Shown: positions 19,225-60,320 of the stretch, piece by piece
Layout: each line of letters starts with the position of its first letter
Numbering within the stretch: position 1 is the stretch's first letter
Notes under the pieces: model-generated
Told to the model about the DNA's origin: nothing
Database searches by the model: none
The model's input: only the letters and a program-made list of their open reading frames with translations
Made by a program: the position numbers and the translations under genes
Source: Congeria kusceri
Lineage: Eukaryota; Mollusca; Bivalvia; Myida; Dreissenidae
Direction: 5' to 3'
DNA length: 64,000 nucleotides
Assembly: GCA_027627225.1 (NCBI GenBank)
Contig: JAPFQT010000361.1
Coordinates: 76,001-140,000 of the forward strand

Positions 19225-20490
19225 TCTCACGATAGAGACTTCACTTTTTATCCAATCTTTGCCAATATTGCACAGTTGTGTATGACCATACAATCTTGGA
19301 CGGGATTGTTATTGAGCCTAATCACACCAGTAACACTAGAGTTATTGCCCCTTTTTCATGCCAAAAAGTGCAAAAATGTCTTTTTCCAACATATAGATTT
19401 TATTTGCCATTCAATCTTTCACAGTTTGTGAATGACCATCAGATCTCAGCAGACGCCAAATAAATCGGCCAGATCGTGTTTCAAACACCGGAGATATTGC
19501 CCAGTTTGCATCAATTTTGCACAGTTTGTCTGTGGACATAAGATTACAAGTCAAATTGAATTTAAGCAAGATAGAGCCAGAAACACCGGAGGTATTGCCC
19601 TTTGTTTTTGGAAAATTATACAAAAATGGACATTATTCAGGATAGAGGCTTCATTTTTCGTCCAATTTTTACCAAGATCTGACGAGAAACACCAGAGTTA
19701 TTGCCCTCTGTTTGTGAAAAAATGAGCAAAAATGGACATTATTCAGTATAGAGACTTTATTGTTCATCCAGTTGTCATTGATCTTGAACAGTTTGCTATG
19801 GCCATAAGATTACAGGTTAAGTTGAATATAAGCAACATAGAGCCAGAAACACCAGAGTTACTGCCATTTGTTTAATCCCTTCTGTAAATTTAAATCACTG
19901 ATCACGACATTAAAACATGAGCCGTGTCGTGCGAAAACCGGGCTTAATGCATGTGCGTACAGTGTCATCCCAGAAAACCTGTACAGCCTGAAAGGGCTAA
20001 TCCGGGACGGCACTTTCCGCTTTTATGGTATTTTCTGTTTCACTGGATTTATTATTACCCTTTTAGTGAAAAAAATATAGAAAAATGAGCATTATTCAGA
20101 ATAGAGACTTCATTTTTATTCCAATCTTCACCAATCTTGCACAGTTTGTCTATTACCTTTAGATTACAGTTGAATACGAATATAAGCAAGATGGGGTCAT
20201 AAACACCGGAGTAATTGCCTTTTGTGAAAACAAATATGCAAAAATGGTCATTATTCAGAATTTTTCATCCAATCTTCACCAATCTTGCAGGGTTTGTCTA
20301 TGACCATAATATTAAAGGTGACGTCCAATATAAGCAAAATCGAGCCAGAAACACCAGTTTATTGCCCTTTGTTTGTGAAAAAATATACAAAAATGGACAT
20401 TTATTATTCAGGATAGAGACTGGTTTGTTATCCAATCTTCACCAATCATGGACAGTTTGTCTATGAACGCACCGGTGAAGTCGAATATAA
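19225..20490. repeat. tandem array of 150-180-bp units
   Basis: Repeated phrases include ttgcacagtttgtctatgacc, gccagaaacaccagagttat and atggacattattcagg. Units can be picked out near 19,245, 19,395, 19,500, 19,660, 19,765, 20,110, 20,270 and 20,430. The array runs directly into the gypsy integrase fragment at about 20,490 and is interrupted by a hairpin element at about 19,905-20,045. Confidence 0.75.
19905..20045. mobile_element. short hairpin-forming repeat inserted in the array
   Basis: Sequence with a central imperfect palindrome: gtgtcatcccagaaaacctg at 19,962 pairs with the reverse complement of ggctaatccgggacggcac ending near 20,012. It breaks the 180-bp array, which resumes after it. 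I recall similar hairpin repeats being abundant in bivalve genomes; this is not checked. Confidence 0.55.
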
Positions 20491-20917
20491 GCATGCTTTT
20501 CTCATGTTCAATCGCCAATTGAATGCCAAATTACCAAAACCGCCAGTTCAAAATGATGACTGCGAAATTCGTGATAAGGATAGTCGTGCTAAGACAAGAA
20601 ACAAACTATATGCAGACAAAAGGCGACGTACACAGCCAAGTAAACTTCATGTTGGAGATCGAGTTTTGCTAAAACGAGAACAGAAAAACAAATTCGAAAC
20701 TACGTTAGATCCGGTACCTGGAATTGTAATAGCAAGGAAAGGTTCAATGTTGACAGTTTTACACAAGGGAAAACACGTATACCGTGACGTATCGAAGTTG
20801 AAAATGGTGTTCAACCCGCAGACTCAGGTTCAGAAAAAAGACATACAAGTCAACCAGATAAACAACAACGTCCGACAGATAAACAACAACAACCAAAACA
20901 ACGTCCGCATAGAATGA
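20489..20917 (+). pseudogene. Ty3/gypsy integrase C-terminal fragment
   Basis: The open frame contains LMFNRQLNAKLPK, YADKRRRTQPSKLHVGDRVL and a small beta-barrel-like tail with VLHKGKHVYRDVSKLK. This order (target-site helix, basic stretch, HVGDRVLLK, then the strand-rich tail) is that of the integrase C-terminus of metazoan Ty3/gypsy polyproteins. The GAG, protease, reverse transcriptase, RNase H and integrase core are all absent upstream: the frame emerges straight from the 180-bp tandem array, so the element is 5'-truncated or recombined there. The C-terminus is unusually Asn/Gln-rich (repeats of QINNN). The surviving frame is intact to its stop, suggesting modest age. The methionine at 20,504 is internal, not a real start. 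Confidence 0.85.
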
Positions 20918-32192: not shown

Positions 32193-33515
32193 GAGTCAAC
32201 AAGAGCTGTCAGAGGACAGCAAGCTCCACTCTTTTAAATATTTCAGTTGGTACATATGTTTGAAAGTGGAAGGGGCATACACTTGTGGACATACAAAACT
32301 GAGTTATGGCAATTATGTCATCAAAATTTACCAAGTTTCAAGTAAACATCTTGTGTAGTTTATTAATTTGAAGACTTTGGAACAAGTGGGCATACCTCTA
32401 TCAAAATGCAAAACAAAGTTATAGGGAATGTTGCACCTGATAAGGTGTTGATGACACAGATATAGTCCATGTTGCAAGTGAATAACTTATGTAGTTCTAA
32501 AATTACAAAACCTTTTAATATAAATTTTAACAAGAAACATATGTGATAAAGGGGTATAACTCTGTCAAAATACAAAGAGCTATAGGGAATGTTGCCCCTG
32601 ATACTGGAGTTGATGACACAGATATATTCCAAGTTTTATGATATGTAGTTACAAAACTTTTGAATATAAACTTTAACCAGTAAATCTATGTTGCCCCGGA
32701 CACTGGAATTGATGAAAGAAGTATATTCCAAGATTCAAGCGAATAACTTATGTAGTTCTGCAGTTACAAAACTTTTGAAAAAAAACTTTAACCAGAAAAT
32801 CTATATGAAAAATGGGCATGACTCTGTCAGAATAAAAAACATGGTTATGGGAAATGTTGCTCCTGATACTGGAGTTGAGGTCAAAAGTATATTCCAAGTT
32901 TCAAAACAATAACTTATGTAGTTGTAAAGTTACAAAACTTTTAAATATGAACTTCAACCAGAATATCAATGTGAAAAAGAGACGTAACTCTATCAAAAGA
33001 CAAAACCGAGTTATGGAGAATATTACTTCTGATACTGGAGTTGATGACAAAGGTATATTCCAAGTTTCAAGTGAACAACTTGTGTGGTTTTGAAGTTAGA
33101 CAACTTTTGAATTTAAACTTGAACCAGACAATCTATATGACAAAACGGCATTACTTTGTCAAAAGACAAAGCACGATTATGGGAGATGTTGCTCCTGATA
33201 CTGGAATTAATGACAAAGGTATATTCCAAGTTTCAAGAGAATAACTTATGTCGAACTGCAGTTACACAACTTTTGAATATAAATTTTAACTTGAAAATCT
33301 ATGTAAAAAGGGGGCATAACTCTGTAAAAATACAAAATAGAGTTATGGGAATGTTGCCCATGATACTGGAATTGATGAAAGTTACAAGTTTCAAGTGAAT
33401 AACTTATGTAGTTTCGAAGATAAAGACTTTTGAATACACACTTTAACCAAAGTCAGACGCCGACGCCGGGGGTAGTAGGAAAGCTCACCTTTTCTTCGAA
33501 TAGTCGAGCTTAAAA
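32193..33515 (+). mobile_element. tandem-repeat (~167-bp) non-autonomous element
   Basis: Begins aagagctgtcagaggacagc and ends with tcttcgaatagtcgagctta after a gacgccgacgccggg phrase. In between, units carry ggcataactctgtcaaaat, gaatgttgcycctgatactg and tatattccaagtttcaag; the last phrase falls at about 32,721, 32,888, 33,055 and 33,220, a period near 166 bp. I associate the termini with very common bivalve repeats. The small open frames across the units are artefacts of the repeat. Confidence 0.75.
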
Positions 33516-33997: not shown

Positions 33998-34152
33998 TCA
34001 TTTCATTTGTGTTGAATGCAAAAGAGCTATTCTTCTGGACTTGTTACGTTCATTATATAGTTTAGCGTGTATTACTTTTAATCGTTCAGCGAGAGGCAGA
34101 TCAGCGTGAATATCAGGATGAAAACGAATAAATTCCCGAATTCCGGAGTATC
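33998..34152 (-). CDS. terminal exon: basic C-terminal segment
   Basis: The acceptor ttttacattttag opens a 155-nt exon that starts in phase 2 (two bases complete a codon) and ends at TGA 33,998-34,000. It encodes about 50 residues including YSGIREFIRFHPDIHADLPL and KLYNERNKSRR, a helical basic tail. Its phase fits the single base left over by the exon at 36,887, giving Gly at the junction. The segment resembles, from memory, the C-terminal part of proteins with the same recombinase-like domain, where a short hydrophobic helix precedes a basic NERxK-like stretch. The stretch 34,153-36,886 would be one intron holding the repeat element at 36,040-36,850. Confidence 0.6.
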
Positions 34153-36039
34153 CTAAAATGTAAAATTGTGAGTGTAATTACAAAGCTGAAGATGAAATGG
34201 TGGTTGTTAATTACACTTATTAGTACCAAGTTTGGTATCGTGACCACAACAATGCTATACAAAATGAAAGTATTTGATCTGTGGTCATAAGATCACATTA
34301 TATATTTTGTTCTAAAAATTGCCGAATACAAGTTGAATTTACTTTCATAACTAGAACCTGCATTGCGACTTTTGTTAATTGTGATCCTTACAACTGGAGA
34401 TCCACATATTTTATAATTTCACCCACCTGGTAAATTTTCTTTAGTGTCCCATTTAGAAATGTCGTGTACTGTACTGGAAAAGTATATGTTCAGCCGTTGG
34501 GTATCTTCTTCTTTCCATACAGTTTACCGTCAAACTATTAATAAAAGAAGAGGGCAACGATGGCATTAGATCGCTTAACTGAGTTTAACCAATGGTTATC
34601 TGTAGCAAACGTGTCACTTGTGTTCTGGCATAATTTTCAAAGCTTCGATAGACAACAAAACCATATTAGATTTTCTGTAGAGCCGTACAACAACAAAAAT
34701 TTTCGCAAACATAAATGTCTCAAAGTACTTTTAGAGGGTTATACAAGAAACAATATTACTTTAATATGCAGTGGTTTTAGACACGAAACGTTTCCATGAT
34801 TTCAACATAGCCATATATGGATTCAAAACCCTCACTGAGGAAGCAATGTTTCTTCGAAAAATCAAACTAGCTTGAGGATTTTGACACAGAACAGAAGCGC
34901 ATTTCCTTAAAAGTATTAAGAAATACCCATTGGTTTCTGGCAAGAGCAGGTTTTAATATTTGTGTATGTACCAGCATTGAAGAATATAAGCACTGAACAG
35001 TAAAATAAAACAGCCTTCTGTTTTCCATTCCCAGCTAGACAATTCTCAAAATAATTTATATGCAAAATACCATAATCTTTCTAACTAACACATTTAATAT
35101 ATTAGACTTGTATGTGAGTGTCATACACCTTCTTATGATGCATTTTCCCGAAAAGATATGATATTGTTTCCCGTTATATCGCACCGCTATAACAGACCAA
35201 CAAAATTATATCAGGCTTCTGTTTAAATCATTATGCTAGTCATAATACATATACACACAAATAACAGGTACATATCGAGAATACTAAAACAATATTAGTT
35301 AGACTTCAATTCACGGAATGCTACCGTCCATTTCAAGAATCTCATATCTGGCGAGTTCATTACCAACTCAGAATGACATATTGTCATAATATACGTGTTT
35401 CTCCACATGAATTGGTCATATAAATAGAGAGGCAAGAGAGGAGTGGACGGAAATTCAAACCCAAATACAGACATGCCATCCTTTAATCAGACTATTTAAT
35501 TCATAAACGGAATAGCAACAATTTTATTTATGAATTAGACACTAAACTTTTCAGTTTGATTAAATAGCAGAGTTCTGCTATATTCTCATTAAATACCCCA
35601 TTTCTTATTGAGACATGTTTTTTATCAGCATAAATTACTAAAACCTTAATCCTTTTGCCAAAGTTCCTGCCAATATGCTGAAACAAAAGAAATATTAGTT
35701 ATTCTTATACATGTAAACTTTATTAAGTTTAGACTTTATACATTGCAATGTGTCCCTGGGTATATAAACAACAACGGAATGAAGGAATGATTCGTTAACT
35801 CTGAAAGTATCATGTACATTTCATAAAATAGCCAAGAAGTTAATGGTTCTTGAAAGAAAATCCCATGTCCTTAGTCGTATGGCCATTCTCGTGCAGTCAC
35901 ATTAATTATCTGAATATAACAAATACATTTAATATGACATATATTCAAGCTATATTTTAGCGTTTTTCTTATGTACTAACCTCCAAAATATCGCAATTTA
36001 ACATTTTATAAACATTCTGCAACTGTACGATGAATCAAA
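34153..36039. other. intron of the fusion gene; no clear feature
   Basis: No conserved domain seen. A plus-strand open frame of 79 codons at 34,560-34,799 has no recognisable motif. An exon-like stretch behind a tttgtttcag acceptor at 35,677 exists but stops after ten codons in the phase required. Confidence 0.5.
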
Positions 36040-36850
36040 TATGAAACCTCTAGGCCATGCGGTTTCAGAGGAGATTTTTAAAGTCATTATGCTATTTATG
36101 TCTAAATAAACAATGTGACCCCTGGGGTGTGGTCAGTTTTGACCCATGGGGCATAATTTGAACAAACTTTGTGAAGGACCACTAAAGGATGTTACATACC
36201 AAATATGAAACCTCTGGGCCTTGCGGGTTCAGAGGAGACTATTTTTAAAGTCATTTTGCTATATATCTTACATAAACCATGAGAACCCCGGGGCGTGGCC
36301 AGTTTTGACGCCCGGGGCATAATTTGAATGATCTTTGTAGAGGACCACCATAGGATGTTACATACCAAATATGAAACCTCTGGACCTTGTGGTTTCAGAG
36401 GAGAAAATATTTAAAGTCATTTTGATACATATTCTATATAAATCATGTGACGCCCTGGGCGTGGATCGTTTTGCCCCTGAGGCATAATTTGAATAATTTT
36501 TGTAGGGAACCTCTAGAGGATGTCACATATCAAATATGAAAGCTCTGAGCCTTGCGGTTTCATAGAAGAAGGTTTTTAAAGTTTTTATTTTTTAAATCCA
36601 TTTATTATCTCTGGTGACCTGCATATTTAGCGTCCGGAAATATTTGAACAACCTTGAAAGAAGTCTCCACAAGGATCATTCCTGTGAAGTGTGGTGAAAA
36701 TCTGCCAAGCGGTTTAGGAGGAGATGTTGTTTGAATAAAAAGTTGACGACGCACGCACGCACGCACACACGCACGCACGCACGCACGACGGACAACGGGC
36801 AATCACAAAATCTCACCATGAGCACTTTGTGCTCAGGTGAGCTAAAAAGC
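36040..36850. mobile_element. tandem-repeat (~166-bp) non-autonomous element with (CACG)n
   Basis: Units carry gaaacctctgggccttgcgg at about 36,040, 36,206, 36,374 and 36,537, with cataatttgaa and ggatgttacataccaaat between them. The right end has a CACG/CACA microsatellite at 36,749-36,789, then atcacaaaatctcaccatgag and gtgctcaggtgagctaaaa. It lies wholly inside an intron of the fusion gene. Same architecture and period as 32,193-33,515 but a different sequence. Confidence 0.75.
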
Positions 36851-36886
36851 ACTGGTAAAGACAATAATTAAAATTATGGGTCGTAC

Positions 36887-36929
36887 CTTCAATATGTGAA
36901 CCTTTGTCAATTGAGATTTCTTCACCATC
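36887..36929 (-). CDS. 43-nt acidic mini-exon
   Basis: Bounded by ttttgtttag and a gtacga donor. Read in phase 0 after the exon at 37,102 it gives DGEEISIDKGSHIE plus one base, with no stop; the other frames are less compatible. The peptide continues the EIYISI ending of the preceding exon in the same acidic, beta-like style. Confidence 0.55.
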
Positions 36930-37101
36930 CTAAACAAAAGCAAATTTTATAACTCAGCAATTTATCAATAGGAGTATAATTAATTTAGCAGACAGATGAT
37001 TCGTCTTTAGTTATTTTCGAATCCTTTAAATATTGTTGAATATTTTGTTTAATAAAGTAAGGAAAACTCTGAGAAATATTACTATAATTATGCTAACCTA
37101 C

Positions 37102-37266
37102 AATTGAGATGTAAATTTCTCCGCCACTGCTTATTTCTGTAGAATCCGAATCGTGCATTTTTGAAGCAAACGATTCCCGCATGGTTGATTCTGTACAGGA
37201 GATGAAACTTGTGAATACGTCCAAATTAATTCTGTAAATAATGTTTGTAAACATTGACACAACATC
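37102..37266 (-). CDS. 165-nt exon, serine/acid-rich linker
   Basis: Strong acceptor cttttttttcag and donor gtaggt bound an exon of exactly 55 codons open in phase 0, with MFTNIIYRINLDVFTS at the start and DSDSTEISSGGEIYISI at the end. No domain recognised. The recombinase exon upstream appears to leave one base over, so an intermediate exon is missing or that donor is misplaced; in the alternative phase this exon stops after 13 codons. Confidence 0.6.
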
Positions 37267-38829
37267 CTGAAAAAAAAGTTTTCTGTATAACGGACACTTT
37301 ACACTTTACAAACCGCCAAAGTAGCCCGTCGTAATTTACCAAACAAAGCCCATGTTTTGTTGGCAAAATAGTTTTATTAACAAGTGAGTACACATCATTA
37401 AGCATAGCATAAGAAAAAAAAAAGACTGATATGCAACAATGACTACCTTACCAGAGCTGTTAACCAAGATAACCAAAACCACAGTGGCGGCGATATGGCA
37501 TTAGAACACTTAAGGGGATTATGAGGGCCGGAAAGCTCTGTATGTTAAGCACAAGTTCTATGAACAAGGTCTATGAACGAGATGTCCGGGCTAAGAGTCA
37601 TTTTACTAGTATGACGGAACACTGTTTTCATTATGTGAGGTTTAACTACAGAAAATTACTATGGGCAAACACAAAAGAATAGCTTATCGTTTCTTGTCAT
37701 TGTGTTTGTGATCTGTTCCATTATTTGGTTTGATTGTTCTTGTGTTTCTGTCAGCATAATCAGGTTAACAGTTTTCCATTGAGTAATGATATAAAATTTA
37801 AACGTAATATAACGAAATGAATCCCTGGTGAATGAACTTTGCTTTATTACAACACGCGCAATCTAGTTACGCTATTTTATGACGTCACTTTATGTTTTTC
37901 TTTTTATTTAGTATGTATTATTTCATATATTTGCAAAATAAAAATAAAAACTGGGACAAATAAAATATTACGTAAGTGTTGAATAAAGATAAGTTTATTT
38001 GTTCGGCATGAAAACGTATGAACCACTCACCAAGGCCGGTGGCTCAAGTTTTCTAAAACTTGCTAACTTTGCTTAACTTTAGTAAACACTAATCTAGTAA
38101 TCTCCGTGACGTCACCTCGTGTCAGAACCTGTGACATTTTGCGATCATGTAACTGTTTGAGCATTTATTTTGCACAGTTGACCATTTTGACATCGGTTGA
38201 TTTTAGGGGATTTTGATTTTGTATTTGTTTATGAAAATTTTACGACATATCTTTACTGAAAAGACGATAACTCGGACCTGTATCTACTTCCACGTACATT
38301 TTATTTTTATATTTCTTTTTGCCCGTCATAACAACATGTACTGCCATATACAATGAATGTATTATCCAAGTAAAGCATGCGGATCAAACTTAAACGGACG
38401 CGCGCGTTTGTTCTTATTTTAAAATGACCTTTATAAACAAAAATTATTTCTCCTACTAAAAGTGAAAGGTACACAGCACATAGAAGGACCAAAACCCATT
38501 AAGTTCCGGATAATCATTTGGTAATCTGGGATCTCATACACTCGCATTCTTAAAACATATTAACAGGTTGTTGTTACCACTATGCAATAACTAGTTTTTA
38601 AATCAATATAATTATGCAGTAGAATATCAGAATTGGACATTTATATACACTGTTATAACTACTACTCAATCAATGCATGCCATCAGATTATGGCATTTTT
38701 TGTCTTTTTACATTAATCAAAATCACCGAAAATAGCCAATCGCATTTGGACAGTCGCTTGTCAATACCGTGTGCACACAATGTTTTACAAAAATAGTATA
38801 TTTTTAGTTATTCATAAATATGTGCATAC
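37267..38829. other. intron of the fusion gene
   Basis: No conserved domain seen. The 61-codon minus-strand open frame at 38,307-38,492 has no splice sites or motif that would place it in the gene. A missing phase-adjusting exon may lie here. Confidence 0.4.
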
Positions 38830-40316
38830 CTATGTCAATGTTGTGAAAGAATCTTCCAACTTGTGTGACTTCTAATACGGCCGGAGGACACTGGTACACA
38901 TTTCTGTTGATTGCATCACTATGTCCCATGTGGCGGTAAAAGGCACCCCTTTCCTGCTCGTCCGTTTCAAGTTGTGCATATTTGGTCGACACTCGATGAC
39001 GAAACTTTGTTGCTGTTAACGTTTCTACCAAAGCCTTTGCACATATAATCCTGATGCTGTCGGACCCGATCATATGTTTGTCTGACAAATTCGTACATGG
39101 GAAAAGAAATTTGTTGTATTTGTTAACGCCACCATCTTTCCTTATTTCTGGATCTGCAAGCATTCGCAAGCCTGGGATTGTATCTTCTGCAAAAAGAACA
39201 GGGATCAGACTTTCGTCCCTTTTGCCTGTCTGCTACGCGACTTTCATGGTTTTGAGCATTTTACGCTCCTGTTCTGATAGATCCGAGTCCGTACACTTAC
39301 CCAGCCATTCATCATTCTCCGCTTCCTTCCATTGTCCAAGAGTCAATCTACTGGGTTCTCCACCTATTCTAGCATTAAATAATGTAACTCGACAGAAAAC
39401 TAAATTTCTGAGAAGTGTAAATTCGTCGTTTGAAATAAAATTGTATCTATCTGTTGTTAGTTCTCTGAATTTATGTACCACATAATTGGTTAACGTTTGT
39501 ACGTCTTCCTCAACAGGTAATTCTTTTGGCTTCCTCGTTTCTGTCCTGTCTTCTCCCACGGATAGATATTTAAACTTAGCAAACTTCTTCATTGTATACC
39601 CTAGAGATGACTTCAAGTCATTTTTGGAGTCCTTACGGCTCTGCAAAACCTCTTTTAGAAATTCAAAATTGTCTCTAACAAACATTTTTGTGATGGATGT
39701 GCAGTATTTTTTCGTTTTATTTCTGTATATATCTTTGAAGTCCAAAAACAGTTTTGCTAACTGTCTTAACATTGTCATAAGAGATGATTTTTTTCAGCCT
39801 CTTTGCTCTGGTTACCGCCCTTTGCAATATATCTGTGGAAGCCAAAATCCTTCAAATGTATTTTATTTCTACACATGTTGCCGACACCATTGTCACATAA
39901 TCGACTCAAAATTTTTGCCTGATAGTCTACGTATTTTTCACCAGTGTTTTCATATTGCATGAGAGTAACATTTATTGCGCTTGATGACGCTTCTGAAACA
40001 GCTGAATGACATTTTTTCTTGTGTTTGTAAAAGGATGTCTTCGATAAAAACGCTTTACACACTGAACATGTAACGATCTCATCATTCCCTTGTTTTCTTT
40101 CTCGAATTAAATCCTTTGTATTTCCATCTCTTATTTGTTTCATATTTGCTCGATATATACCCTTCGTTCTCAAACTGGCAAATGCATGATGTTGTTCTGG
40201 CTTTGGTAATTTCATTGCAGCAATTACTTCCTTTTCAGATGTATGCTGACTTTTCATATGATCAGGTAATTTGGCCGAAAAAAAACCACGAAATGGACAG
40301 GATCGTTTAGGTTTCC
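38830..40316 (-). pseudogene. C2H2-like plus tyrosine-recombinase-like exon
   Basis: The acceptor gttcttcttttaccag opens a long exon ending at a gtatgc donor. It starts with a C2H2-like finger whose second Cys is Arg (CPFRGFF...HMKSQH), then a second finger CSVCKAF...HKKKCH, then a helical domain. After the frameshift at 39,788-39,794 comes a typical catalytic core: NARIGGEPSRLTL with the first Arg at 39,368-39,370, KFRHRVST with the second Arg at 38,999-39,001, MGHS with His at 38,921-38,923, and VYQCPP with Tyr at 38,894-38,896, nine residues after the His as in integrases of this fold. The usual His of HxxR is Thr. A TAG at 39,233-39,235 falls where KTMKVA should continue into QTGK. Upstream and downstream frames are otherwise continuous, so the damage looks recent. 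Could be a Crypton-derived domain. Confidence 0.8.
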
Positions 40317-40399
40317 CTGGTAAAAGAAGAACAACCATGACACAACGCGGTGACACTAGATATTGGTTATTTTATGACGTTAACACGTATTATGTTACA

Positions 40400-41095
40400 A
40401 ATAATACTTATTCAAGTTAGCACTAAATAGTAGAGTATCATGAGACAAAAACAACTGGAACTTTGTCGCAGGAGTGACAAATGGCCCCGAATGAAAGCTT
40501 GTTTGAAGATTGGGCCAGTAAGTTTTTTAAAGTTATGGTAGGAAATGAAAATATATGTATTTTTATAAAATTTTACATCCCCATTTTAACGCACAACTAC
40601 ACGTAACCCTCAACAGAAGGAGGTGCGTTTACAAGGAATATTCTCTATACAGTCAATACAGAAAAATAATCAAAGCGCCAAGGAATTTGCGAATGGAGGA
40701 AGAACAATTGAAATCCTCATCTTAACGCACATGTTAAAGCACAATTACAAATTACCCTCTACAATAAAGACAAATTTCAAGAAAATCCGTTATCGACTGA
40801 AAAAACGTAATAAATGTGGACTGACGGTCAGACGGACGGACAGAAGGACGGAGAGAAAACAATCTGCGGGGCCCTAATTATACCGGAGGTCAATCTGCCT
40901 GCACAGTAATATGATATATGTCTTATATTAAAATATCAGCGCGAAAATACGTGTGTATGTGAAATTCTACTAGAAACAGCTCGTTGTTTACATTTTCAAA
41001 TTGCAATGTGTATATTCATTTAAATGAAAGGATACAGTCTAAGATACCCCAATGATATCGACATGATAGTCGGCAAAAGTACATGTATTTAGTAC
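40400..41095. other. intron with a dispersed repeat
   Basis: 40,600-40,880 ends in actgacggtcagacggacgg and gaaggacggagag, a GACGG-rich tail I associate with bivalve dispersed repeats. The open frame 40,623-40,877 follows this repeat and is not called. Confidence 0.5.
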
Positions 41096-41205
41096 CTTTT
41101 CTTTCTTTCTCTGATGCAGCTTCATTTTATGCGCTTCTGTCTGTCATTGCTTTGCTCGAGTTGTTACTGTGCATATATGTTGATGTTGATGTTGCTGCAT
41201 CTTCA
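41096..41205 (-). pseudogene. 110-nt exon with one nonsense codon
   Basis: Acceptor tcttggtgcag, donor gtacta. One base completes the codon begun by the exon at 41,330 (giving Ser), then 36 codons follow: EDAATSTSTYMHSNNSS ... AMTDRSA, a TAA at 41,127-41,129, NEAASEKERK, and one base that joins the GG of the next exon to make Gly before KPKRSC. Both junction phases fit exactly, which is the best support that the stop is a lesion and not a chance open frame. Confidence 0.7.
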
Positions 41206-41329
41206 CTGCACCAAGAGATAGAAATAAATTATAAAACCATATAGCATGTGTTGTAAAAGCTTACTGCGATCTCAGTCATTGACTCTAATGTCAGTATAAC
41301 ACAGTCATGAAAAACGTAACAATAGGTAC

Positions 41330-41417
41330 CTGGTTTTGCTCACGATCAATGTAATACTTCCATCGTCATGTTCGTCGTCAGATATTTGCTTCACAATGTA
41401 CTGTTCCAGTCTTTTCT
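41330..41417 (-). CDS. 88-nt acidic exon
   Basis: Acceptor ttcttttatttag, donor gtacct. Two bases, 28 codons (KRLEQYIVKQISDDEHDDGS then ITLIVSKT) and two bases. Intact. Its 3' phase matches the next exon; its 5' neighbour is not established, because the exon at 43,543 ends in phase 0. Confidence 0.65.
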
Positions 41418-43116
41418 CTAAATAAAAGAAATATCTTTAAAAACTGTTTTGTTTAAAACAAGTACGAGACGTGTGTTTTATATAAGGGAGCAACGGTTAG
41501 CACGAACATGCGAACATGTATGTAACATTCTTACTAACAGTAGGCAGTTACAGATTGCAATGGGTAATGTAGAAAAAAACAATGTTGCCACTTTGTACCT
41601 TTACCATATGTACTGGTGTTAGATAATTTCAATTATAATACACACATATAAAGATCGTTTTACACACATGGAACACGAGCGCCTCCATAGAGGTTTAAAT
41701 CGCAGATAACTCATGATTGATATAGATGTTGATTAAATGACCCCTACATATTCATGCACATTTTAAAAACTATCTTACCGTTTGGGTATATTTAGTTTTG
41801 TTTCATTAACGTCAAAGAAAATATCTGTACATAGGTCTGATTGATGGAGACGCCAAGTACACGGTGTCGGAGGTAAGGTCGTTAGATTCTCTCTAATCAG
41901 AGAAATGTTCATTAAGTGTCCCACGTACTAACCGATGTGAAAAATACTAATACGTTCAAATGTTGCCAAAGAAACGTTTTAAAGGTTCTCAAATTTAGAT
42001 GATCGCAAAATGTCATATTTCCCAGACATGTAAAAATGTGTGAGTCACAGCGCGTTAACAAGACAACAATATGTATACAAAGATATCCGCAGACCAATAA
42101 TTGCAACACGAAAGTGTCAGAAAGGTTTTTTAATTCATAATTTTTTAACTGGCGGTTATAATTATATTCATACCCATACCGTGGGAAAAGTATTTCAATG
42201 AATGGTGTATATAGTTTTATAGAGACAGAGTACTGAAAGCTGTTAAATGAAAATACAAAAATGCATCCAATGACTGGTCTTTACTATTACATCTATGCTC
42301 ACAACTGTGACACTATTCTAATGTGGCTGAGAATGGCAAAGTTGTACAAATAACCAATCACCAGCCCAACAGTATTGTACGCTAGCATTGTTCACTGGTA
42401 GCGAATTTCTTTGCAGGTCAAAAAACAAACACAAAGCTATCTTTTGTCAGAACTTTTTTTATTCACCACCATGCATTATCCTTTCTTCCATGTTATGAGT
42501 ACCTTTACCACGTTTCCATTTTCAATTCCTTTTTCTCTTAGTCTTGCTAAGGTCTTCTTGAGTATCTTTTCCATGTTATACAAGTATATGTAGGAACAAG
42601 TTTAATAAAGTTGCACATGTTTAGGAGCAACATTAATCAGTGCATTAATGCGAATGTATCTAATGTGAGATTCTTGAAACGAACTAATTTTCGTACTGAT
42701 CTCAGAAAAAAATGCACCTGTAAGACCAGCGGGAAAACCATATTCGTTGTCAATGGTTCATCTTGTGGCTCGATGTTTCTTCTTTCTGAGTTGTTCCGTG
42801 CAGAACTGTATGCCAAATCAGAACATTAGTGGTAAACAGTTATCGGAGGTTTCCTAGGTGATCAAAACACCCTAAACTCTAACACGTTAGAATCCATTAA
42901 TTTAACCTAACTATCCATTATTCATACACTCATCACTCACGCACTCGTGGAATGCTAATGTCACGTCGAAACAATAAAACAAAATTATTCGTGTCTTTGA
43001 CACAAAACTGGGCGTTGTATTCAGACATGTCCTATGAAAGCTCCATGTGGTCTGTCTGAAAAAAAGACCTTAGTCGTTATTGTTTACCTACAAAGTATAT
43101 TATGTTGGTGCTATTA
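41418..43116. other. presumed intron; a few unassigned open frames
   Basis: Plus-strand frames at 42,411-42,593 and 42,611-42,829 (the latter with CTCKTSGKTIFVVNGSSCGS) show no family I can name. A 46-nt exon-like stretch at 41,779-41,824 (minus) has good borders but does not fit the phase of its neighbour. Confidence 0.35.
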
Positions 43117-43376
43117 AAGGGACTTGTTCACATATATTACGTATTTTTGAAAAAAAAACATTACATGTCTAAACTGCAAAAACTAAAGTGTTTGGACTAA
43201 TAGATAACACATATTAAATAAGGAAAACATGTAAATGAACAAAATTGCATTCGCCGGGTATCGAACCTATATTTCCTATACATTTCTTTGTCAGAAGTTT
43301 TATTTTGCGTGTTCATATATAATGTACTTTTATTGTTGATATCTTTGCCAATCTGTGAACAGGTCCCTTTAATATC
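43117..43376. mobile_element. 260-bp inverted-repeat element (MITE-like)
   Basis: Ends ttaaagggacttgttcaca and tgtgaacaggtccctttaa are near-perfect inverted repeats, framed by TTAA, so a TA or TTAA target is possible. The middle contains ccgggtatcgaacc (reverse complement ggttcgatacccgg), which resembles a tRNA B-box. It may thus be a tRNA-derived core carried within inverted ends. Located in an intron of the fusion gene. Confidence 0.65.
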
Positions 43377-43542
43377 CTATTTTAAATTGTATTCATTTTA
43401 ATCATAATCACATAAAAGGGTTTACATTATTCCAGTAAACCCTTATACATTAAAGTTATTATGTTGAAGATTCAAAGACTTATTAAACAATGTTCACCAC
43501 AGCTGCTCAAGAGATACATGAGCGAGAGTATCACATACATAC

Positions 43543-43596
43543 CGATATTGAATCAACTATCACCATCTCGTTTGTATTACTGTATATGGGCGTTGC
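43543..43596 (-). CDS. 54-nt mini-exon
   Basis: Acceptor ctactgtgttgcag, donor gtatgtatgtg; 18 codons open only in phase 0 (ATPIYSNTNEMVIVDSIS). Phase agrees with the end of the repeat exon if the GTAAGT at 44,798-44,803 is used. Confidence 0.5.
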
Positions 43597-44803
43597 CTGC
43601 AACACAGTAGTACAATATTTAACTTGTACACATTTTATTTCATGATACACACAAGTGTAAGAAATCTTAAATATTTATGTTATTATGTTAACGATGTTAC
43701 ATCTTTTAAAACCTGTCATTCAATAAGGATTTCTATTATTGCGATAGTTTAAAGTGTTCTTTCAAACTTGTATTTCTATAGCTACATATCATACATATCA
43801 TGATATGCATTGTTGTGGCCGTTTTCGCATCAAACCAACACATTACTCTTCTTTAGCACTGCAACACTAGAATGACCATAACAACGGCGATAATTAACGA
43901 TTGGTTACTAACATTTAAACTAAATACGCATGCATTTCCTAATCCTACTAATGGTACCAACGAAGTAAGATAGCAACACAGTGAAAACCACAACATGCCC
44001 ACAAAGATTACAATACATGAAAACAGTCATGTTAAAGGTATAATGATAAAATTAATTACTTGATAAACATCCTTTTAACTCTCTGAGTCATTGTCCAAGA
44101 TGCCGTTCTGAAGAACCTATGGTTGGACAGTCAAATAACAAAATACTAACTTGACAATTTCGATCGAATAAGTACTGTATTAACTGTTTTCCTTACGTCA
44201 CCTTTATATATGAAAAACTATAAAAACATATATAATTACATTCACAATACCTGTTAATGACTTTTGTAATAAACAACTATGTTATATTGTAAAGACACGT
44301 TTATAACAGGAATTATCGCACTAAGACACATTCATTTCTTATTCCCACAAAGGTTGCGTAATGGTTTGTACTAATGAATTAACCTTTTGGTAAGCTGTAC
44401 AATTTAATAGCTTGGGCTGGTTAGCCAACACCGTGTTTACATAAACAATAACACGCACTATTAAAGTGATTACAATGATTTAATAAAAGTAATTCGGTGA
44501 ATATCCCTACACACATACAAAAATAACATCTTAGGAATTAAATCACGTTAAATGAATTATAATAAAATTAATTACTTATCAAGGTCATAGATGACGTTTC
44601 AGAATGTCCTTATCATTCAAGGCCAAAGATGCAGTTGTAAGGAACAAAGTAATGGATTATAGTAAACATGCAAATATGCAAATAGACAAATGCGTTTAAT
44701 AAGAATGAATATACAATTTTCATTATATATGCAAATTAACAGCTATAATTATAAATATATTTACGTTTTTGTTTCGTGCATGTGCGTCTCTTGTGTCACT
44801 TAC
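43597..44803. other. presumed intron
   Basis: 44,050-44,120 and 44,570-44,640 are diverged direct copies of one another (phrases attaattactt, cattgtccaagatgccgtt / cattcaaggccaaagatgcagtt). On the minus strand the first copy has an acceptor-like ttcttcag followed by NGILDNDSES and a stop; possibly an alternative last exon, not established. Confidence 0.35.
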
Positions 44804-45567
44804 AATACTTCTCTGGCTGGTCTGGCCAACTTCCGCGTCCATTGTGCCCGTAACAAAACTTTCCTGGCTTGTCTGGCCAACTTCCTCGTCCATTATTCCA
44901 GTAACAATACTTCCCTGGCTGATCTGGCCAACTTCGGAATCACTTGTGTCACTTAAAATGCTTTCCTGGCTGGTCTGGCCAACTTTGGCGTTCCTTGTCA
45001 CTTACCATGCTTCCCTGGCTGGTCTGGCCAACTTCAGCGCCCCTTGTGCCAGTAACCAAACTTCCCTGGCTGGTGTGGCAAACTTCGGCGTCCCTTGTGA
45101 CACTTACAATGCTTCCCTGGCTGGTCTGTCCAACTTTGGCGTTCCTTGTGTCACTTACAATGCTTCCCTGGCTGCTCTGGCCAACTTTGGCGTTCTTTGT
45201 GTCACTAACAATGCTTCCCTGGCTGGTCTGGCCAACTTCGGCGTTCCATGTGTTACTTACAATGCTTCCCTGGCTGGTCTGGCCTTTCGGCGTACCTTGT
45301 GTCACTTACAATGCTTCCCTGGCTGGTCTGGCCAACTTCAGCGCCCCTTGCGCCAGTAACAATACTTGCCTGGCTGGTCTGGCCAACTTCAGCGCCCCTT
45401 GCGTCAGTAACAATACTTGCCTGGCTGGTCTGGCCCACTTCAGCGTTTCTTGAGCCAGTAACAATACTTTCTTTGCTGGTCTGGCCAAATTCGGCGTTCC
45501 TTGTGCCAGCAACAATACTTGCCTGGCTGGTCTGGCCATTTGCGCCAATTGTACTTGTTAATAATTG
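44804..45567 (-). pseudogene. repeat exon: ~15 x 51-bp units, 17-residue linker repeats
   Basis: The acceptor ttatattacag leads into QLLTSTIGANGQTSQASIV and then a repeated unit with consensus EVGQTSQGSIVSDTRNA. Units are 51 bp; fifteen copies lie between about 44,807 and 45,540. The minus-strand frame is kept over most units, but two units have lost 2 bp (near 45,283 and 44,998), shifting the frame each time. At least six units carry gtaagt across the IVS codons, the last of which (44,798-44,803) is the likely donor. The repeated peptide is low in hydrophobics and rich in Ser/Thr/Gln, so a flexible linker between the SET and recombinase halves is the natural reading. The long plus-strand open frames here are antisense shadows. 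Confidence 0.7.
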
Positions 45568-45639
45568 CTGTAATATAAACGAAATTCTATACTTTATTAT
45601 AATGATTATGACAATCTAACACTTAGCCAAAGACAATAT

Positions 45640-45815
45640 ATCATTTTATATTCCCACTTAGTTCGCGTCCTGGATTGAACTTCAAATGTGTACAAGATAC
45701 AGTGCTTGATACATCTATCACTGACATGTCTATGTACTTGGCCATATCAACCATGGAAGTCCACCGGCTAATCGGCATAGTGCTACTGGCACAAGGGTCG
45801 ATTGGTCGAGCACCT
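45640..45815 (-). other. possible additional exon or dispersed repeat
   Basis: On the minus strand, 58 codons are open (GARPIDPCASSTMPISRWTS ... CTHLKFNPGREL). No strong splice sites, no known motif. Could be an exon between the SET and repeat exons or simply a repeat. Confidence 0.25.
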
Positions 45816-45902
45816 TAATCCGGACAGTTATAATTATAATAAGTTTTTACTAAAAATAATACATTCTGACAAAATGAAAAACACAGTTTATTTGTGTTTT
45901 TG

Positions 45903-46143
45903 TTAATTCTTTAGCAACGTAATTTGATTCGAAACCAAAATGTCGTATGCCTGAATTCTCCAAGGTAAGTCGTCTGCACCATAATCAAATCTTATTTCTT
46001 GGTCGGGAAGTAAATTGTTCGTTGTGAAGATACATAAGTGAGGCTTTTTGCGGACTAGAACCACTCGGACTTCTGCATTTGTGGTCGCCCCGGTCCCATC
46101 GTTAACATATCGGCCGAGCTGTTTTGAGAATGTTGCGTCAACA
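45903..46143 (-). CDS. SET domain, C-terminal half
   Basis: Acceptor ctgttttcag. The first base completes a Cys codon with the preceding exon; the frame then reads VDATFSKQLGRYVND, KKPHLCIFTTNNLLPDQEIR and FDYGADDLPWR. These are SET motifs III and IV: GRxxNHS (here GRYVND, with the His position replaced by Asp) and the xDYG tyrosine motif (intact). The best relative I can name is the KMT5A/SETD8-type domain, in which the protein lysine methyltransferase fold ends shortly after the DYG motif. The frame is open to TAA at 45,903-45,905, but the exon probably ends earlier, for instance at gacattttg before gtttcg, which keeps phase with the repeat exon. The altered NHS motif makes catalysis uncertain. 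Confidence 0.75.
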
Positions 46144-47178
46144 CTGAAAACAGATTGATGCAATGTAGTAACTGTTAATAGCCAAATTGTGTAGTCACTG
46201 TTAAAGAATGTTTTTGAACGTTTGTTTACAAATGGTATTTAAAAAATAAGTATCAAATTAAAATACTTATCAATGTTAACGTGCCTGTACGTCTGTAATA
46301 ATTTTACCGTAATTATCCCGAGTCTTTTCACAAGATTATTGTTTTGACACTTTCCAGTAAAAAAGTAAATGTTACATTTTTATGAGAAATAAAGAAGAAA
46401 ACATTTCCAGTGTTTCTTGGCCGATATGACCATTATCAAATATGTCTAAAATAATTTGGTCAAACACAGAGTGTGCACGTGTGGTTAAGACAACATACAC
46501 ATTCCATTTTTATAGATTTTTCCAGCAGGCGGGCAACAACTTTGATGCTTCTGGTCCGATCTGTTTCATATTCGAATATGTCATCTAATGGTTATATAAA
46601 CTATGCAAATTTGGTCAAGATCGGATTCTGTCCTGAACACTGTCAAAAATCCATTTTTTTGTGCCAGATCTGATACATTTTTGCAATTTTTTCACGAAAC
46701 ATGGGCAAAAACTTTGGTGGATTTGACGCATCGAACGTGTCCGAGAGTGTAGGGCCTTACATAAAATGTGCAGGTTTTTTTTCAATATAAGATAACAAAT
46801 TGAAGTTTCTATTATGTTAATAGTTGACGCCATGTATACGACAGACAACGCAGGAGAGGTGCTATATATCAGTGGCTCACTTAGCACTGCGTTTTGGGCT
46901 GACGCAGTATATTTTCTATCACATGGTTACGTTACAATATCATTAAATGGTGTATGTTTGACAATTTCAATTTTCGTTATTTTTAACGTGATGTACAATA
47001 TCCCAACAAAACATGTCTGAGTCATTTAAAACAGTCCCATTTTAAGATAAAAATTGATTTTATGCAATATTTCGGTCGAAATAATCTGATTCGCAATACA
47101 TATGCCCCTTATTACAACAAATATATTAACTGATTTCCGTGTTCGATTGGTTTAGTACAATACTATAGTAAAACATAC
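46144..47178. repeat. intron containing a dispersed repeat
   Basis: 46,470-46,760 carries ttggtcaagatcggattctg and cacgaaacatgggcaaaaac-type phrases, reminiscent of the 180-bp family at 19,225-20,490 but not clearly the same. The remainder is AT-rich. Confidence 0.4.
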
Positions 47179-47335
47179 CATCATTCTTTCTGTCCGGTCT
47201 TGAAAAAGAACAGAAATGAACCAAGATGTCTTGGGTACTTCTGTTCTCGGATGAGGCCTTCTTTATTGGAAATCAGTTCACCTGCATACTCTAACAAGAA
47301 CGATGGCTTTTTTTCAGTTACAAAAACACCTTTAC
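47179..47335 (-). pseudogene. SET domain, N-terminal half, with one nonsense codon
   Basis: Acceptor tttgcatttcag, donor gtatgt. Two bases complete Gly with the first exon, then 51 codons: KGVFVTEKK, FLLEYAGELISNKEGLIREQ, KYPRHLGSFLFFF, KTGQKE, TGA (47,181-47,183), two bases. GKGVF and LEYAGELI are SET motifs I and II for cofactor binding. The TGA sits one codon before the Cys-Val-Asp-Ala-Thr junction, where the family usually has an aromatic or similar residue, so a single-base nonsense change is the simplest explanation. A canonical residue pair after VTEKK appears to be missing (the PSF stretch is short). Confidence 0.75.
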
Positions 47336-47743
47336 CTGAAATGCAAATAATTATTTAAATTTATATCAAATAATGCTGGCTATAAAATAGAAATAGTGGT
47401 GATGTTTAATTCTCAATTTTACGTTTGTGTTTAATATGTACTGAGACTATTTGAGAATATATCGAAACACACAGATTTACCGTAATTATTAATAAATCAT
47501 TTACAAATGTCATATATTGCCCATTTAAAACACTTTTAAGTATACTGACACTGCAAATATATGCGATTACACATACATTATACATTTCGTGACCGATATT
47601 TAAGACATTTGATTAGTAAATCATACTTTGTAGAAATATCAAAATCAGTTTTGGCGTTTATTTTACTACCTACAAGATATGTTTACAGGTAATGCTTTTT
47701 TAATAAATACAATATCATTTCCAGGTGTTAATATGTATATTAC

Positions 47744-47816
47744 CAATATAATAATTAACTGTCCTGACAGTGTCCGGGTGGATCCTTTGCTTGGAGGATG
47801 TAGCCTTTTCAGCCAT
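47744..47816 (-). CDS. first coding exon of the fusion gene
   Basis: ATG at 47,814-47,816 with G at +4 begins MAEKATSSKQRIHPDTVRTV then NYYI and one base before a gtaata donor. That base joins gt of the next exon to give Gly, producing the continuous TVNYYIGKGVFVTE across the junction. The phase fit and the match of IGKGVF to the start of SET domains support both the start and the splice. Confidence 0.65.
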
Positions 47817-56470: not shown

Positions 56471-59400
56471 AATAAGCAAGAAATAAGAAAAGGTCGTTAT
56501 GCTGGAGGTATTTCTATTTATATTAAAAATAACATTAAACAATACATTTCTTTAGTAGTGACAAACAAATATGGCATTGCTTGTATCAAACAAGATGCAT
56601 CACTTTTTAATTTCAATGAAACTGTATTTTTATGTTTTTGTTATATTCCACTAGTAGAATAAATGTACTCTATGGACAAATGTTGATTTTTTCGAAGAAG
56701 TTGAAAATGGTGCATAGAAAAATATTAATACTTGGTCAAGCATATATAATTGGAGATTTTAACGCTAAAACAGGCCATCTGTTTGATACAATAGAATATG
56801 ACAAACATTTTTCTTTTATAATTAAACATACTGTACTTCGAATACACATGTTTGTTTACAAAAAAATATGTAATCAAGATCACGTAATTGACAGCAGCGG
56901 TCGAAAACTAGTATCATTGTGCGTACGACCAATAGCATCATCGCTAACGGTAGTTTGCCCGGCGACAAAGCGTGAAACTTTCTATTGAGTGTTCAACGAG
57001 GGCAAAGTGTCACCGACTATTTATTACTACAATCACATAACTGTAAATACATTCGTAATTTTGAGGTGCTTGATTGGTCGAAATTTTCCGATCACGCAGG
57101 ACTGTGCATGAGTGTCACAAAAGCGGGCAGAATACACAAAATTAATGTACAGAATACAAGCGATAACGTAGTAACGAAAATAGTATTCGAACAAAAAATT
57201 CGAGCTTGTTTAGAAAGTAATGCGAACACACTTAACTATATTCATTACCCAGATACTCTGTTCGAAAAGAAAATTCAGATTCTAACGAATACTCTTCACA
57301 CAGGTAACACCAAGATATATGGGAAAAGAGTAAAACGAACAAAATAGCAAAATGCGCGCAAATCAAATAAACCATTGTGGTTTGATAATACTAGCGAGAA
57401 GGCAAAATTGAACTTTAAAAATACCAACGAAAAATTTAATAAAACAAGCAATACTTTTACAAGGTTACATTTTGTTAAAAGCAGAACTAATAATAATAAA
57501 GTTCGTAGGTAGAACTAGGGAAAATTAATACAAAATTCACGAAGCGCATCGTCTGGAAAAAAAATCGCTAATAAAAAGCCTAGACAGTTTTCGAAATTAA
57601 TTTAAAATGTTATAAGTATACATGACACATCTAAAAATAATTCCATTCACAAATTATCGATTATTTTAATTCGCTATGCGGCGAGGCATCGGGCGCGACC
57701 GAAGAATGTGATACAAAATTTAATTGTGCATCGATTTCAGAGGAACTCGATTCATTCATAACCGACAATGAAATAAAAATAGCAGTTTTTAAACAAAATA
57801 ATAACAGTCTAGCGGACATGATGAAATACCCGCATAAATTGTTAAAACGGCATATAAAACAATTAAATCACACCTGAGAGTGATATTAGCTCGTTGTTTG
57901 ATAATTCAGTATATCCAGAATCGTGTGGAATAGTGTATGTTGTTCCCATTTTTAAGGAGGTATAACGCTAAATAGTATTCTCTCAAAACATTATTCTCAG
58001 ATATTGCTGAACATGAAAGTGGTCAGAAAAGTACAATAAAATATCGAAATACCCATTTGGCTACCAAAAAGGTAAAAGTACCATTGATTGCATCTGTGTA
58101 CTTGATACTATTGTCAACACAAATCTAAATTCAGGTCAAAAAATTATATGCTGCATTTATTGTTCACGAAAAATGTTTCAATAAAATTAATCGATATTGG
58201 ACAACGCTTAAAGCTGAGAAAATAAAAACAAAAATGGCGAAAGCCGTCCAGGCAATGTACTCTTCTGTCAAATCAGCTTTAATATACAATAATAAACGTC
58301 AGATTTCATATACTCATCAATAGGAGTCAAACAAGGAGACCCGTGTTCAAGTCCACTGTTCATGATTTTTGTCAACGATATAATGAAACACATTAATTGG
58401 AACACCGAAGGAATTGTTTATATCAATGAGACTAACTTCTTCTTTATGTTATTCGCCTATTATCAAGTTTTATTCTTCACATAACCGAATTCACTCCAGT
58501 CAATGTTAAACGATATGGAACATTACTGTAACCAATGGAGCTTAACAATTAACACAAATAAAACAAAAATATTGATATTCGAACGAGCTCAGCGAACATT
58601 TAAATCCTATAATAAAGATCTAGAAACCATCGAGTCGTTTAAATACTTAGACGTCCATTTATTGAAGAACGGTAACTGATACCGAACTCAAAAATCGATA
58701 GCTCAATATGCAACCAAAGGTATGCATATATTATTTTCAATTTGCAATCAATACTCCTTTGAAACGCAGGAAAAAATAAATGTATTTGACAAACTCGTGT
58801 CACCCATACTTAACTATTCCTCAGACGTGTGGGGATTCTGTCCTGGGAAAGACATATATAGAAACCATTCATTAAAAATTTCTTCGTAAATTATTATGCG
58901 TAAATCAGTTAATGAATGTATCTTGTTTATATGGAGAATTAGACAGACTTCTATTATCATTAATAAGAAAATTATGAATAGTTAAATATTGGTTTCAAAT
59001 TAATAAATCAATTGATGACAGCCTCATAAAGCAGGCATATGTTATGTTGTATAATGATGCAGAAAATAATAATATTAACAACCAAAACTGGGCGCATCAT
59101 TTAAATTGCGTGTAAGATCAATTGGGGCGGCTCTCATATATAAAGTTAGATCAGACAAATCGTTCGGAATCAAATAACTAAATATATGCTTTCAACTTAA
59201 TAAAACAGCGACTCACTGACAATCACAAACAGAGTTGGTACAATTCAATTAACATTTCATCCAGATTAGAAACATATGCTCGTTTTAACAACGAATTTCA
59301 CTTTGAACCCTTTTTAAATGCATTTCAAGAAATAAAATTTAGAATTGCGTTTGCACGATTCAGAGTATCTTCACATACTTTAGAGCTTGAACGCGGTCGA

Positions 59401-60320
59401 TATACAAATATAACTCGTGATAATCGAATTTGTCAGCTTTGTAACTTTCGACAAATCGAAAACGAATATCTTTTTCTTTTTACTTGCCCTTTATACGGTG
59501 ATCTGAGACGCACATATTTCAAATCATATTACTGTCGATGGCCCACGTTAAATAAATTAAACCAATTAATGCAAACAAGGAATAAGAAGGAAATGTTAAA
59601 TCTACCAAAATACATATATTTTGTTTGCTGTCGGGCCGGCTTGCTCAGTTGGTAGAGCGCTGGACTACAAATCCGATGATCGCTGTTTCGATTCCCGGCT
59701 CGGCCACAAAACTTGTGTGGGGATTGGTCATGAAATTATTTCTACGGCCATTTTCCCCCTACGTCAGATTCAAGTAGGGCAGTTGTCAGTTACTGGCATG
59801 AGTATGTGCACTCAGTACTGGTAAACCAGCTTACCCAGGAAAAGTGTGAGTAGGTTAACTGACCGCCGACTGAAATACTGTTGAATACGGAGAAAAATCC
59901 AAACAAACAAACATATTTTTTGCTAACAAATTAATATATGAGACACTGTTACAATTGTAGCGTCATATATGATGTATTTACAGAAAAGACATGAAACATG
60001 GATATTTTTATGAATATTATTTTATTAACATGTTATATAACGTAAAACTTTAGTTGTTTATTGGTTTACAACATGTATTTATTAACTGATTGACTACATA
60101 ATAATGTTAATTTACATAATTTCAAAAACTAAGAAGTATTGTTTGATAAATTTGACTTCAGTAACCGTTTATTAAACCATAAAGCTTCTATCATTGTTGG
60201 TTTGTTAACAAAATGTATGTTATCTGATTGTCTACATCGTGTGTTGTATTCATTATATCATGTTAGGAGTGTTGTAACGCTTAAAGGCAATACAAATAAA
60301 AATAAAAAAGAGAATAATTT
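56470..60320 (+). pseudogene. LINE (endonuclease plus reverse transcriptase) inserted in the satellite
   Basis: From 56,470 three frames continue an apurinic-type endonuclease: GGISIYIKNN, FLCFCYIP, YIIGDFNAKTG (56,747-56,776) and FSDHAGL (SDH box, about 57,089). RT follows: VYPESCGIVYVVPIF, FGYQKGKSTIDCI, GVKQGDPCSSPLF, then LFAYYQVLFF where the FADD box is expected, so both catalytic Asp are changed to Tyr (58,455-58,466). The C-terminus has FKYLDVHLL, LNYSSDVWGF, RVSSHTLELERGRY, NEYLFLFTCPL and KYIYF. After the SINE, FANKLIYETLLQL ends at TAG 59,958-59,960. The 3' UTR ends in an A-rich run near 60,305. The 5' end is truncated inside the endonuclease. Many stops: inactive. Confidence 0.85.
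59611..59925 (+). mobile_element. tRNA-derived SINE inserted in the LINE 3' coding end
   Basis: The head (59,633-59,707) has tRNA features: gctcagttggtagagc (A-box and D-arm), and gtttcgattccc (B-box). Body: agtagggcagttgtcagtta, cagcttacccaggaaaagtg and ggttaactgaccgccgactg. Tail: aatccaaacaaacaaacat. Imperfect target duplications flank it (tatattttgtttgct at left, catattttttgct at right). The LINE frame resumes on the other side. It resembles SINEs I recall from molluscs, possibly RUDI-like, unverified. Confidence 0.8.

Follow-up and report, generated by a model that had tools for sequence, protein, structure and literature searches.

The closest described systems to the locus analyzed in the present study are the animal Cryptons (CryptonA and CryptonI) and the DUF3504 genes, which likewise have a eukaryotic tyrosine recombinase (YR) as the main protein and are present as dispersed copies (PMC3212892). 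According to this source, the catalytic tetrad of Cryptons is written R-H-R-Y, the vertebrate DUF3504 genes derived from Cryptons have lost their catalytic residues, and a Crypton with an added domain has already been published, namely CryptonF-2_PS with a C48 peptidase. The family described herein differs from animal Cryptons in several respects. First, a SET domain is located upstream of the YR, and zinc fingers are present. Second, a C-terminal domain is carried by some relatives and by exons of the present locus, whereas animal Cryptons have none. Third, the H before the second R of the tetrad (taken as box II) is absent from 24/24 relatives. The YR relatives also keep the catalytic residues that the DUF3504 genes have lost, and DUF3504 was not among the 25 Pfam families, of 29, that were listed for these relatives. 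The prokaryotic YRs (XerH, XerA, Cre, lambda integrase, Flp) differ from the family through the zinc fingers and SET domain of the latter, and through the replacement of the box II His with Thr, Asp, Asn or Ser in all 24 relatives. No account of a SET-YR protein was found in the literature searched, which covered few subscription papers and included passages of PMC3212892, PMC12153100, PMC8905726 and PMC8406910.

The window, i.e. the whole stretch of 64,000 nucleotides of the bivalve Congeria kusceri that was analyzed (contig JAPFQT010000361.1), contains on its minus strand a core exon (38830..40316) encoding zinc-finger segments of the C2H2 and CCHC types together with the core-binding and catalytic domains of a YR. 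Judged by the best relatives alone, the DNA would come from a mollusc, probably a bivalve. The initial annotation had read this core as tyrosine-recombinase-like, and the identity was borne out by the profile comparison, which places the core in the YR family. The membership of the core exon in this family stands by the profile comparison, by weak Pfam recombinase matches in 10 of 26 relatives, and by alignment of the predicted model of relative P0001 (68% identical to the window core), for which a structural aligner agreed with the YR fold. The core-binding and catalytic fold of the YR superfamily is therefore predicted by this model. A Foldseek search with the P0001 model returned no recombinase among 34 solved-structure rows (best, a retinoblastoma pocket, E 0.89), and in the viral library seven of the first nine rows were named integrase or Vlf-1, the other two being unnamed (best named E 0.019). 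The predicted model of relative P0010 had a pLDDT of 74.2.

The relatives, which are 27 to 68% identical, carry the two Arg residues (I and II), the GH His and the Tyr in YR order, with Arg II in 23/24, the GH His in 23/23 and the Tyr in 23/23. At Arg I, Arg is found in 25/27 relatives, His in one and Leu in one, but the window copy has Ile (ARIGGE), and the order claimed for it in the initial annotation consequently holds for the family and not for the window copy. The His of the HxxR motif in box II is common in the YR superfamily and is not universal; none of the 24 relatives has it, this position being occupied by Thr (19), Asp (3), Asn (1) or Ser (1). The zinc-finger segments and the distance of nine residues between the GHS-His and the Tyr of the window core were found as described earlier, except that the second Cys of the first finger is Arg in the window, with Cys in 13/13 relatives having a letter at this position. 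No YR relative was confirmed in viral contigs or in bacterial and archaeal contigs, and the tblastn search of P0011 against phages gave a single weak match (E 0.2), which is a recombinase.

The SET domain is encoded 5.6 kb upstream of the core exon on the same strand. SET exon 1 (47744..47816) starts with ATG and runs to a donor, ending in phase 1; SET exon 2 (47179..47335) encodes the first half of the domain, with 49% identity to the SET of the mussel protein P0022 (E 4e-07), and is interrupted by an in-frame TGA at 47183-47181; SET exon 3 (45903..46143) encodes the second half (E 4e-11 against P0022), and its open frame is matched by Pfam SET at 5.7e-05. These three exons had been described as phase-compatible and of KMT5A type, and both statements were confirmed: the phases fit, and the joined exons, with X at the stop, gave SETD8/KMT5A as the best solved-structure match (E 4e-10). 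The best solved-structure rows for the SET of P0022 are likewise KMT5A/SETD8. The window SET is 43.5% identical to that of P0022 and differs from KMT5A in its identity of 31.8%, in its association with a recombinase, and in the NHS motif, the INHS of KMT5A being replaced with VNDG in both the window and P0022. This altered motif may shift the substrate or the activity of the SET domain; KMT5A itself monomethylates histone H4 Lys20. When the SET part was sought inside a long query, none was found among 134 candidates.

Long repeat linkers are known from KMT5A-like genes of fish. A repeat linker was proposed for the window. A 51-bp tandem repeat (44784..45538, 14.9 copies) follows the SET exons on the minus strand. 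A stop codon closes SET exon 3, and the sole donor for a junction with the repeat is weak (ttg^gtttcg at 45935). Because the array has two frame changes and its opposite strand is open too, coding is unproven, and the array is possibly a linker. The candidate linker exons 1 (41330..41417) and 2 (41096..41205, with an in-frame TAA) were placed by splice sites and phase alone, with no relative found for either. Splice sites and phases are compatible between SET exons 1 and 2, SET exons 2 and 3, the two linker exons, linker exon 2 and the core exon, and the last two exons of the locus. Beyond the core exon, two doubtful exons were noted, one of which (37098..37266) is open with splice signals and incompatible in phase with the core exon, while the other (36887..36929) is a short candidate. 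The C-terminal domain would be encoded by a first part at 34427..34517 (E 0.002 to P0010 and 0.008 to P0018), for which an acceptor AG was looked for directly ahead of 34517 and found absent, and a last part at 33998..34152 (E 0.019 to P0010), which carries the stop codon; all the matches to mussel relatives are weak. This small domain is present in P0010, P0014, P0016 and P0018. All of these exons lie on the minus strand.

The association of SET with a YR was examined across the host genome (1.549 Gb, 1071 contigs), in which at least 150 SET matches, scored from 649 candidates, were obtained, including many half-domain exons on many contigs. Twenty of 150 matches, all of the half-domain kind and spread over contigs and scores, were hand-picked, and the DNA from 0.5 kb before the SET to about 9.5 kb after it was read at each locus. 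Two loci, L014 and L015, were not matched by the SET queries. On first reading, eight of the remaining 18 (L017, L018, L020, L021, L022, L023, L024 and L029) had a YR-family match, in every case downstream and on the same strand as the SET, with none on the opposite strand. When three of the ten YR-less loci were extended by 8 kb, a YR was found at 10.7 kb (L025) and 15.0 kb (L032) of the joined stretch, and none up to 18 kb in L026. Thus, a YR lies downstream on the same strand in 10 of 18 hand-picked SET loci, on ten contigs, a fraction that gives no share of the YR copies without SET because the loci were selected by SET. The ten loci fall into five groups separate by blastn at the threshold used, apart from the window. 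The upstream side was covered for 0.5 kb before each SET and for 6 kb ahead of L020 and L024, where no YR was found. In 84 kb of control DNA from the same genome, comprising 24 kb from arbitrary places, the 12 kb upstream of L020 and L024, and the window outside 33-49 kb, no YR was detected at E 1e-3. The adjacency of SET and YR exceeds chance.

In L024 (contig C14, about 27.02 Mb), an uninterrupted stop-to-stop YR frame of 717 codons covers the linker, the fingers, the core-binding and the catalytic parts, with the motifs NRRRQGE, STKLR, LGHD and HREYY. This frame shares 28% identity with the ant protein P0028 and 23% with P0001, and has no Pfam integrase match. At 2.6 kb upstream, a SET exon encodes the second half of the domain (E 2.9e-09), whereas the preceding 6.4 kb gave no match for the first half. 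As read, the donor of this SET exon has phase 0 and the acceptor of the linker has phase 1, and a direct SET-linker junction therefore misfits.

This misfit is among the observations favoring two separate proteins, i.e. a SET gene of KMT5A-like type lying next to a YR gene, the two having been duplicated as a block, which we consider possible but on the whole unlikely. It is joined by the stop at the end of SET exon 3 in the window, by the variable distance between YR and SET (about 3 to 14.5 kb across loci), and by the relatives P0010, P0018, P0019 and P0028, which are long chains with no SET match. Opposed to this are the strand and order that the window has in common with five further sequence groups, and two mussel proteins of the same YR family. 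First, P0022 (SETD8 n=1, M. coruscus), with the same SET type as the window, is annotated as a single chain in the order YR core, SET and WW, which is the opposite of the window order. Second, a 143-residue WW stretch of P0022 is 88% identical to the stretch ahead of the zinc fingers and YR in P0018 (LOC127705557, M. californianus), and this common stretch ties SET to WW and WW to YR. From these sequences, we infer that the mussel unit would be SET-WW-fingers-YR in neighboring copies, with the P0022 model presumably spanning the boundary between two of them. The WW linker, by which both mussel proteins differ from the window, was not found in the window. A C48/Ulp1-like segment had been seen by eye in P0018 and was dropped, having no solved relative and no Pfam listing. 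The relatives with both domains that the initial annotation had proposed to seek thus come to one, P0022, SET being annotated in 1 of 28 relatives, most of the SET-less ones being fragments from metagenome contigs, many too incomplete to show SET. The tie between SET and recombinase proposed earlier is upheld by the recurring same-strand order and by this one protein, but not as a working fused machine in the window, where the copy is broken and Arg I is lost.

Several loci are near-identical copies of one another. L020, on another contig than L024 and with a stop within its YR frame, is 99.0% identical to L024 over 11.85 kb plus 565 bp upstream (about 12.4 kb in total); the two remain alike up to the 5' limit of the DNA read, and their similarity stops on the 3' side in a TA microsatellite. 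Over most of 10 kb, the identity is 98.9 to 99.4% between L017 and L029 and 99.6% between L032 and L033. Between SET and YR, a 367-bp repeat is present in 2.8 to 9.8 copies, depending on the locus, in the four related L021, L022, L023 and L025. In sequence terms, the near-identical copies and the varying repeat fit a spreading element, and segmental duplication would look alike. A host family of SET-YR genes, each encoding one protein, may have been spread by segmental duplication rather than by its own recombinase, with the YR domesticated, for instance for DNA binding. We hold this reading to be doubtful. The long match of L020 and L024 reaching the 5' limit read and the introns of the gene speak for it, and the copies compared showed neither element ends nor target-site duplications nor empty sites. 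On the other side, copies are found on many contigs, and the catalytic residues are kept over relatives of 27 to 68% identity, in contrast to their loss in the Crypton-derived vertebrate genes reported in PMC3212892.

The window copy is broken. Its exons, which the initial annotation had joined by phase, are not all open: SET exon 2 and the second candidate linker exon contain stops, and the core exon has a frame change near 39793 inside a run of A, a TAG at 39233-39235, and 34 residues missing relative to P0001. The general decay test gave no decay signal, 32 of the 33 columns invariant among relatives being retained (P0028 left out); therefore, the lesions are young relative to the family, or are in part errors of the assembly. 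That all of it is assembly error and the copy functional is very improbable, despite the retained columns and the run of A, given several independent lesions in one gene together with the loss of Arg I and of the zinc Cys.

Herein, we propose, with about even confidence, a dispersed multi-copy SET-YR gene family, probably mobile in the manner of Cryptons or recently so, of which the window holds a decayed copy. On one strand, the unit would run from a KMT5A-like SET domain through a repeat-prone linker, the zinc fingers and the core-binding domain to the YR catalytic domain, with the small C-terminal domain added in some mollusc relatives. First, SET and recombinase would be made as one protein. 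Second, the zinc fingers and the core-binding domain would hold the DNA, while Arg, Arg, His and Tyr would cut and rejoin it. Third, the SET domain might mark histones, either at this site or on the copy itself. Finally, the unit may spread, or may have spread until recently, as a Crypton-like element, which is the least certain step and is suggested because near-identical copies lie on different contigs. More tentatively, mobile YR elements of molluscs might encode their own KMT5A-derived methyltransferase in one protein and write a chromatin mark at the site of integration or excision, or on the element. If true, an element, or a gene derived from it, would have in the combination of recombinase and chromatin writer a new means of shaping local chromatin. 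Moreover, most relatives keep the cutting residues, unlike the vertebrate Crypton-derived genes, and the activity is thus directly testable, e.g. with the L024 frame.

Tandem repeats were a recurrent feature of the interval between the SET and tyrosine recombinase (YR) parts. A 367-bp tandem repeat, present in 2.8 to 9.8 copies, was observed in this interval in the related SET-YR units of four loci of the same genome (L021, L022, L023 and L025), and a 51-bp array lies in the interval in the window. In addition, tandem repeats with a period of 166 bp were found in the window on either side of the recombinase part, at 32688-33449 and 36036-36582, and the latter is similar to a stretch of a further locus, L031.

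Other repetitive elements may also be present in the window. On the plus strand, a 166-codon open frame (20417-20917) resembles, by eye, the last part of an integrase from a Gypsy-type retrotransposon, and the open frames at 56620-57347 and 59182-59655 resemble pieces of a non-LTR retrotransposon by the same visual comparison. A tRNA match at 59634-59706 (plus strand), whose 32.8 bits barely exceed the gathering score of 29, is possibly a tRNA-derived repeat.

Among the protein relatives of the recombinase family, the first catalytic arginine (Arg I) is replaced by His or Leu in P0019 and P0022 (the latter from M. coruscus), and Arg II, His and Tyr are intact in both. The window copy likewise lacks Arg at this position, carrying Ile. 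P0019 and P0022 are possibly inactive yet retained members. An insect protein, P0028 of the ant Pseudomyrmex gracilis, is a distant relative of the family, nearer to the branch of L024, the locus with an uninterrupted YR frame (28% identity). Its occurrence suggests that the recombinase family is widely spread among animals.
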